From NCBI GenBank assembly GCA_002790655.1, contig PFVO01000008.1, positions 1 to 49,114 on the forward strand: a stretch of 49,114 nt of DNA, in the 5' to 3' direction. Source of the DNA: Candidatus Moranbacteria bacterium CG_4_9_14_3_um_filter_44_28 (lineage in GTDB: Bacteria > Patescibacteriota > Minisyncoccia > Moranbacterales > UBA11712). Of this stretch, positions 20,557 to 21,211 are shown one piece after another (within the stretch, counting starts at the first letter, position 1; each line of letters begins with the position of its first letter). The notes below the pieces were generated by a model that worked only from the letters and a program-made list of their open reading frames with translations, made no database searches and had not been told where the DNA came from. The position numbers and the translations under genes were made by a program.

Positions 20557-20585
20557 TTGACAGAAAAAACTATATATGATACTAT
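20557..20585 (+). promoter_or_regulatory. Strong sigma-70 promoter
   Basis: TTGACA at 20557-20562 and TACTAT at 20580-20585, spacing 17 bp. It lies just left of the GIY-YIG element and is likely the original promoter of the zinc ribbon/RGG gene at 20984. Confidence 0.8.
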
Positions 20586-20613
20586 CATCAGCAGTTATCG
20601 AATTAGGCGTATC

Positions 20614-20903
20614 ATCCCTCACCACTTTTACTTTTATGTATTTTATGTGTATCTCATAAAGAATGAGAAAAATGAGATTTACACAGGTTGTACAAGCGAT
20701 CTTAGAAAGAGAATAGCGGAGCATAATAAGAACAGAGTTGCGTACACAAAGCATAAAGGTCTATGGGAAATCAGATACTACGAGGCTTTCTCTTGCAAAT
20801 ACGATGCATTCAAGCGGGAAAAGAGCTTGAAAAGGCACGCGAGAGGAACTCAAGAGTTGAAAGAGCGGCTGGCTGGCAGTCTAAAGTAAAAGTGGTGAGG
20901 GAT
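20614..20903 (+). mobile_element. GIY-YIG gene bounded by perfect 21-bp inverted repeats (minimal mobile unit)
   Basis: The segments 20614-20634 and 20883-20903 are exact inverted copies (21 of 21, beginning ATCCCTCACC on the left). The GIY-YIG reading frame starts right after the left arm and its stop codon lies in the right arm, so the 290-bp unit is essentially all coding. A further TTAGGCG motif lies outside each arm at unequal distance. No obvious target-site duplication is seen. The unit sits between a strong promoter and the leader of the zinc ribbon gene, as an insertion in a 5' untranslated region would. Confidence 0.65.
20636..20889 (+). CDS. GIY-YIG endonuclease-like protein
   Basis: About 85 residues, similar to the UvrC/homing-endonuclease GIY-YIG domain: VYLIKN, EIYTGCTSDLRKRIAEHN (the YIG strand and catalytic Arg) and a Glu in FKREKSLK. 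The start is unclear. In the frame of the domain the first usual start is GTG 20647, which removes the first strand. An ATG at 20636, directly after the left inverted repeat, would give the canonical MYFYVYLIKN if one T were added to the T4 run at 20641-20644. So either translation starts at a rare codon or a one-base deletion has occurred. Small proteins of this type are typically mobile or nicking nucleases. Confidence 0.7.
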
Positions 20904-20912
20904 AAAATAAAG

Positions 20913-20980
20913 TCGTTCGCCTAAGTGAGAACTATCTTGAGCCGAAAGGCCCGGGATTATTAACAAGTTAGGCGAAACGA
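20913..20980 (+). promoter_or_regulatory. Leader hairpin of the zinc ribbon/RGG gene
   Basis: TCGTTCGCCTAA (20913-20924) is complementary to TTAGGCGAAACGA (20968-20980) with one bulged base. The right arm ends 3 bp before the ATG at 20984, so pairing could hide the ribosome landing site. A third TTAGGCG copy at 20603-20609, before the GIY-YIG unit, could compete for pairing. A regulatory role is inferred. Confidence 0.4.
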
Positions 20981-20983
20981 GAA

Positions 20984-21211
20984 ATGGATTATCAAAACAG
21001 ACCCCAGCGCCAGATGCACGACGTGTCTGCTCTGGGACTCAAGTGCGAGGAATGCGGCGCCGAAATCAAAGAGCTTCCGTTCGAGCCCACCAAGCGCGAC
21101 GACGGAACCTACGGCCGGCTTTACTGTCAGCCTTGCAACCGCAACCGGCGCAAAAGCTTCGGCGGCGGCGACAGAGGCGGATTCGGCGGCGGTCGAAGAG
21201 ACCGATACTGA
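20984..21211 (+). CDS. CxxC-x17-CxxC zinc ribbon protein with RGG tail
   Basis: 75 residues. Two Cys pairs, CEEC (about 21-24) and CQPC (about 48-51), form a small zinc ribbon, and the tail is Gly/Arg-rich (GGGDRGGFGGGRRDRY), a common RNA-binding feature. Proteins of this design recur in Patescibacteria and may be RNA chaperones; that role is inferred. It has its own terminator and a long leader with a hairpin that could control translation. Confidence 0.75.
   Translation: MDYQNRPQRQMHDVSALGLKCEECGAEIKELPFEPTKRDDGTYGRLYCQPCNRNRRKSFGGGDRGGFGGGRRDRY

Follow-up and report, generated by a model that had tools for sequence, protein, structure and literature searches.

The Candidatus Moranbacteria contig studied here (PFVO01000008.1; 49,114 nucleotides, all of which we call the window, and contig C34 of the 794-kb draft genome G000) carries a small gene for a GIY-YIG nuclease that is enclosed by perfect inverted arms. 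We consider it probable that this unit is a gene-bearing copy of a family of palindromic mobile elements, in which arms of about 20 bp form one stem, a small UPF0213-like GIY-YIG nuclease is the sole gene, and gene-less hairpins with the same arms, here called solos, are moved in trans. The left arm (20614 to 20634) and the right arm (20883 to 20903), both delimited by inverted-repeat analysis and, like all features below, given on the + strand, are 21 nt long and 100% complementary, with 248 nt between them; similar arms occur at five further places in the same genome. The reading frame between the arms (20635 to 20889) matches Pfam family PF01541 (E = 1.9e-15), and its stop codon (20887 to 20889) lies within the right arm. 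In these respects a sequence-only reading of the window, which had proposed a minimal mobile unit, described it correctly, as it did in noting the lack of a transposase: only the GIY-YIG frame is found between the arms, no search aimed at transposases having been made. An Rfam scan of the window gives only a tRNA and no catalytic RNA core of a group I or II intron, and an intron was rejected on this ground.

The same arrangement recurs across the order, in which 115 of the 128 genomes searched have GIY-YIG matches. For 110 of the genes among the matches listed (30 and then the next 80), we scored inverted repeats hugging the gene and counted as bracketed those with a score of at least 14. The score distribution is two-peaked, and 39 of the 110 genes are bracketed by arms, which are perfect in 28 units and 19 to 21 bp long in 30; the stop codon falls wholly inside the right arm in 26 of the 39. 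One of these loci (L110) looks self-palindromic and may not belong. In the controls, 880 mismatched flank pairs yielded only 6 cases at or above that score, and 660 stretches of 255 bp chosen at random from the same loci yielded 3, by which a chance repeat is rejected. Gene-bearing copies leave room for little besides the nuclease between their arms, the bracketed loci having been found via that gene. The unit of the window is also present in an independent assembly (G004; Candidatus Moraniibacteriota, Parcubacteria group; JAPLXD010000001.1; locus L288, identical to L028), in which the second base of the left arm is changed from T to C and its right-arm partner from A to G, a single compensatory change. 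Chance or an assembly artefact, to which the draft state of the assembly and the out-of-frame start described below might point, is barely credible in view of that second assembly and of the family statistics.

On the protein tree (83 columns, with many weak forks), the bracketed state requires 8 changes, compared with a shuffled mean of 32.4, and none of 500 shuffles was as low. The arm sequence, furthermore, tracks the nuclease clade, with arms of ATCCCyCACC, GCACTAA, CACACC, CCGTTAGA, and other types. The class A clade (9 rows; support of 99/98) has hosts from three families, and more than one matched pair can be found in a single genome: G119 has both class A and class B, and G009 and G108 have more than one class. 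Because the arm sequence follows the clade both across hosts and within one genome, the arms are tied to the nuclease and not to the host or the site. A scan of genome contigs returned only three loci, namely, that of G004 and two belonging to other GIY-YIG kinds, in which no arms were seen by eye. Among viral contigs, one class A arm pattern gave no match and the class A protein profile gave one weak match (30% identity).

The nuclease is a single catalytic domain of about 84 amino acids with no separate DNA-binding part, and among solved structures, that of the UPF0213 protein BH0048 (PDB 1zg2; E = 1.7e-5) is closest to it in sequence. In 27 aligned proteins, Y4, Y6, Y16, G18, H30, and E62 are invariant and R26 is kept in at least 90%; we take these to be the residues usually regarded as catalytic in GIY-YIG enzymes. 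Between the window and G004, nonsynonymous divergence (pN) is 0.16 against a synonymous divergence (pS) of 0.86, and the nuclease body is therefore under purifying selection. The ATG that had been placed one base past the left arm is indeed there (20636), but it is not the start of the nuclease: it opens a different frame of seven codons (MYFMCIS; 20636 to 20659, with the stop at 20657 to 20659). In the G004 copy, an ATG adjoins the left arm directly; by comparison, the window carries two additional bases right after its ATG. The only in-frame starts in the window are the TTG at 20557, which belongs to the TTGACA of a promoter-like site, and a possible GTG at 20647. Because of the out-of-frame ATG and the two extra bases relative to G004, the window copy may be damaged at its start, or there may be an assembly error.

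Two further kinds of GIY-YIG locus were seen. An armless clade adjoins tRNA genes in four genomes (L047, L050, L051, and L053), and in L050 and L053 there is, by eye, an apparent partial repeat of the tRNA start on the far side of the gene. The window's own genome holds a second GIY-YIG gene (L002:1400-1900, on G000:C14) between longer repeats (..GAAATGACAA / GTCATCCCGAGCGGAG..), which may represent a further repeat family that includes a GIY-YIG gene of its own.

Class A solos consist of the paired arms around a short loop and measure 53 to 168 bp in total. A search for the arms elsewhere in the genome and in relatives, which the sequence-only reading had advised, recovers five solos in the window's own genome besides the window unit (two on contig C11 and one each on C23, C25, and C32), and a single 14-nt class A arm has matches in 26 of the 128 genomes, with 52 matches in G119. 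The strict paired pattern is present in 9 of the 128 genomes and its reversed-pattern control in 0 of 128. Class A solos occur in 8 of the 9 genomes with a class A nuclease versus 8 of the 119 without (P = 7.6e-8) and, within families f1 and f7, in 8 of 8 with it versus 8 of 34 without (P = 1.1e-4; kinship is allowed for only through this two-family subset). Class B arms are likewise found as solos in 13 of the 128 genomes, with none in the reversed control, and the class B nuclease, the count of which is incomplete, in 4 of these 13 (P = 0.014). The family is thus dispersed, and its copies begin and end in common inverted repeats, which bears out the earlier description of the repeats as transposon-like. 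Two solos in G119 have loops 90% identical over 96 nt and unrelated flanks, which, as far as sequence comparison goes, is the best sign of copying within a genome; G109 has two more similar solos 1.2 kb apart.

The loops themselves are diverse. In several genomes, class B solos of 65 to 70 bp (L271 to L287) read as a three-way junction consisting of an 18- to 19-bp stem and two small hairpins, and the sequences of the small hairpins differ between copies. In two loci (L188:824-990 in G119 and L214:767-933 in G122), class A arms surround a whole tRNA gene (83 to 84 nt) within a tRNA cluster. Loop content looks free to vary.

Stem structure was analyzed in 63 class A elements from the loci extracted (59 of them gene-less), the outer nine bases being partly fixed by the search. 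The class A stem is 20 bp long, with covariation at positions 4, 10, and 15 to 19 and values at shuffle level at position 20; at position 17, four pair types are present and 54 of the 63 elements have a Watson-Crick pair, versus a shuffled mean of 18.2 and a maximum of 30. The two outer ends differ, TC(A/G)TCCC versus TT(A/G)TCCC, in 34 of the 44 scorable elements (11 of 20,000 shuffles were as high), and 19 of the 63 elements have another triplet at an end. From these end-triplet counts, and from the net insert in the ATPase gene described below (TC + ATCCC..GGGAT), the TC at 20612 to 20613 probably represents the outermost two bases of the element, an asymmetric end.

Stem covariation would also be seen if the host itself encoded the arms as an RNA hairpin that served regulation, processing, or transcript stability and occurred repeatedly in its genome, the nuclease gene having landed in one of these hairpins; in the leader and in RNase P RNA, noncarriers do show a short hairpin at the corresponding position. 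We nevertheless regard this as highly improbable: a single genome can hold different arms for different nuclease clades, the arms go with the nuclease from host to host, some copies lie within coding sequence, and some are absent in close relatives. A regulatory hairpin present once was rejected because of the copies at unrelated sites. The sequence-only reading had held that its proposal would fail for a single copy with arms conserved as part of one mRNA structure; the unit is not a single copy, but the part concerning RNA structure does apply, in that the arms covary as a stem. Because the same stem is found at unrelated sites, it belongs to the element. The earlier observation is confirmed, and the interpretation placed on it is partly supported.

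Occupied and empty sites can be compared in a P-type ATPase gene (assigned by Pfam). Of 24 loci, 20 were readable; an in-frame class A hairpin is present in 3 (G124, G119, and G122) and absent in 17, among which are same-genus genomes of each of the three carriers. In G119, the net insert amounts to 72 nt lying between TAT and AAAAAC, and the target is not duplicated; on this point the junctions in RNase P RNA, tmRNA, and the window's leader are ambiguous. In the window's own genome, an in-frame solo adds about 33 codons to a class I tRNA-synthetase gene, in a linker, and because the linker varies in the other seven genomes, this is not a clean empty site. In both the ATPase and the synthetase, a palindromic copy thus lies in frame and leaves the gene open, as is found with Rickettsia palindromic elements.

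Structured RNA genes are also occupied. The transfer-messenger RNA (tmRNA) gene could be read in seven genomes, of which G004 has a class A copy and six have none; G001 gave no full match. Of the eight RNase P RNA genes, four (those of G000, G001, G004, and G005) contain class A arms, that of G007 contains arms of another class, and those of G002, G003, and G006 have a short hairpin. The 16S rRNA gene of G001 (L046) holds a GIY-YIG unit of the CACACC class. Other solos lie in spacers. Two loci (L055 and L064) were rejected as RNase P RNA insertions and are not counted, since the likeness was by eye only and Rfam did not list them. The occupied 16S rRNA, RNase P RNA, and tmRNA genes, the leader site shared by G000 and G004, and the strong purifying selection on the protein would suit ordinary homing, in which a free-standing endonuclease gene inserts into leaders and into genes for structured RNAs and the arms serve only as a stem that keeps the host RNA folded, as in rRNA intervening sequences. 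However, homing would not give gene-less hairpins with the same arms at many nonhomologous sites, spacers and in-frame positions in protein genes included, nor does it fit the presence of several sites per genome, and we judge this explanation quite unlikely.

In G007 (contig C38; L235 and L135), the RNase P RNA stem-loop is built of CCCAGCCCCAG arms in place of the class A arms of sister genomes, its loop looks partly like theirs, and a GIY-YIG gene with arms of the CCCAGCCCCAG class begins 5 bases upstream of the RNase P RNA match. One solo of the window's own genome (L180:829-928, on G000:C23) follows closely on a promoter-like site and precedes a small gene whose product resembles, by eye, a KH-domain protein; it is a further leader insertion.

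The window unit itself occupies the leader of a host gene. A sigma-70-like promoter was identified by eye at 20557 to 20585 (TTGACA at 20557 to 20562 and TACTAT at 20580 to 20585), and TTGACA or TTGACT stands near the same place in all eight family genomes. It is followed by TTAGGCG at 20603 to 20609, the first strand of a conserved leader stem (7 of 8 family genomes, with ATAGGCG in the eighth); by CGCCTAA at 20918 to 20924, which is complementary to both TTAGGCG copies (8 of 8); and, according to sequence reading and family comparison, by the second TTAGGCG at 20968 to 20974, just upstream of a zinc-ribbon-like gene (20984 to 21211). The 75-amino-acid product of this open reading frame has a Gly/Arg-rich C terminus and no Pfam or NCBIfam match, and the gene stands behind the leader in all eight genomes. 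With two copies of TTAGGCG and one of CGCCTAA, the leader (20603 to 20974) could form two mutually exclusive stems in the eight genomes and is perhaps a regulatory switch; it has no Rfam match.

The leader site is occupied in two of the eight family genomes, G000 and G004, which hold the unit between TTAGGCG and CGCCTAA, with 308 and 305 nt between the strands, respectively. In the six noncarriers, 43 to 46 nt separate the strands (lengths by eye) and include a weak short hairpin. The proposal that the unit entered the leader between the promoter and the zinc-ribbon gene is therefore ambiguous as to insertion, and the empty sites that it predicted are present in the sense that six of the eight genomes lack the element but are not clean, given the hairpin-like stretch in all six. 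That the window copy was lately acquired from G004 by horizontal transfer is not supported: synonymous sites are saturated, and the nuclease (82% protein identity) is only somewhat more alike than the zinc-ribbon protein (74%) and a C39 neighbor (61%). Because G000 is nearer to the noncarrier genus g2 than to G004 (85 to 87% versus 74% for the zinc-ribbon protein and 79% versus 60% for the synthetase), the unit either was there anciently and was lost from other genomes or reached this site on two occasions.

How such elements might move can be sketched from these features. Slx1, which has the same fold, cuts branched DNA. Because paired arms are selected or renewed in every class, host genes are left open or foldable, and the nuclease is a single domain of Slx1-like fold, the nuclease of gene-bearing copies probably acts on the folded arms and may drive movement. 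It would recognize the folded stem or a cruciform and cut at the stem foot or at the target, and the element would then insert into T/A-rich sites in hairpin form, leaving the target unduplicated. Solos, which keep the arms around a short loop, would be moved in trans by the nuclease. Copies may survive in genes because the stem would let host RNAs fold and in-frame copies be translated, and in the window, the stem would keep the leader strands together because the copy sits in the loop between two pairing strands of the leader RNA. If so, this would be a new kind of mobile element: a self-complementary DNA unit with a 20-bp stem (in one class, a three-way junction) and, in its loop, the gene for a junction-type GIY-YIG nuclease by which it is cut and moved, with several arm and nuclease specificities and with gene-less passengers resting in essential RNAs and proteins, and thus neither a transposon with a transposase nor an intron with a homing nuclease. 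We put this forward tentatively and give it somewhat less than an even chance.

A number of findings weigh against a nuclease-driven palindromic element. Neither movement nor cutting was observed, and we infer both steps. The arms surround a minority of the genes, 71 of the 110 GIY-YIG genes being without them, and such arms are therefore not general for the GIY-YIG protein. The start of the window nuclease is doubtful, the window's own leader site has no clean empty counterpart, and the junctions in tmRNA and in the leader break any one exact end rule. Arm mismatches on the strand of the open reading frame (G.T, 7; C.A, 7) show no lean to RNA or DNA folding, and with this lack of bias, RNA-level selection through G.U pairs was rejected.

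Two more such findings concern the solos. Eight genomes have class A solos in which no class A nuclease was found; the gene-bearing copy could have been lost, the assembly could be incomplete, or there could be another mover. For the most part, the loops of solos show no relation to one another or to gene-bearing copies, and simple internal deletion, considered as their source, therefore does not explain solos. Both findings would suit an alternative in which some other enzyme, such as a transposase elsewhere in the genome, moves the elements and the GIY-YIG gene is a passenger picked up by some copies, the loops, even one holding a tRNA gene, looking as if any DNA between the arms were carried. 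Unlike what a passenger gene would give, however, arm class tracks nuclease clade in several clades, and the spacing between the arms fits the nuclease alone (no transposase search was made); we therefore hold the passenger explanation to be unlikely, though the least so of the alternatives considered here.

The element family and its nuclease bear on several questions. The mover of palindromic elements that insert in frame in genes for proteins and RNAs is not named in the portions of the open-licence literature covered by our search; because gene-less elements here share their arms with nuclease-encoding copies, an enzyme can be proposed and directly tested. The family would further account for the GIY-YIG insertions in rRNA genes of the candidate phyla radiation (CPR) that a 2024 study could not place and, in part, for the abundance of small GIY-YIG genes in genomes of such small size.

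Among known systems, the Rickettsia palindromic elements (RPE), of about 150 bp and in ten families with in-frame insertions according to the available parts of a review on miniature inverted-repeat elements (PMC10969869), are similar in being small and palindromic, in lying in frame in protein genes and elsewhere, and in having several sequence families per genome. They differ in that some copies here hold an arm-matched nuclease gene, whereas no enzyme is named for RPE in those parts of the same source; the host lineage is unrelated, and the two are likened by description and not by sequence. In intervening sequences (IVS) of 23S rRNA with the S23 protein, an open reading frame also lies in the loop of a stem formed by its own terminal inverted repeats, within a structural-RNA helix; that of Coxiella is given as 428 nt with a 28-bp stem in the portion of the paper accessible to us (PMC4990558). 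Here, a GIY-YIG nuclease replaces the S23 protein, and there are sites beyond rRNA, solos, and in-frame insertions in protein genes; the window copy lies in an mRNA leader, and one related copy (L046) lies in 16S rRNA. The 2024 study of CPR rRNA insertions states, in its main text, that all of its GIY-YIG open reading frames are in insertions resembling neither group I nor group II introns, where the target sequence is poorly conserved, and judges them not to spread by homing (PMC11270868). To the extent of that text, L046 is of the same kind; the main text does not contain the words "inverted" and "hairpin", and the passages considered here leave arms, solos, non-rRNA sites, and the pairing of arm with nuclease untreated. 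Within the part of the open-licence literature that was open to search, with subscription papers mostly outside its scope, no paper joins GIY-YIG with bacterial palindromic elements, and "GIY-YIG" and "palindromic element" occur together only in a paper on fungal mitochondria.

The remaining comparisons are with enzymes and with classical transposable elements. The UPF0213 protein BH0048 (1zg2) and Slx1-type nucleases share the single GIY-YIG domain, with a sequence match in the case of 1zg2, but have a housekeeping or unknown role, and we know of no arms for either. Free-standing GIY-YIG homing endonucleases share the nuclease fold and the intact catalytic residues, whereas the protein here is a single domain of about 84 amino acids that is flanked by arms at dispersed sites. 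With classical insertion sequences and miniature inverted-repeat elements, the family shares terminal inverted repeats but not a transposase gene in the autonomous copy. Repetitive extragenic palindromic (REP) elements with their RAYT (Y1) transposases, and the IS200/IS605 elements, have hairpin ends and an HUH Y1 enzyme, with a short hairpin at each end. The elements described here resemble them in having hairpin ends, no target duplication seen, and gene-less hairpins beside a gene-bearing copy, but differ in that the nuclease has the GIY-YIG fold and the arms, of about 20 bp, stand far apart.
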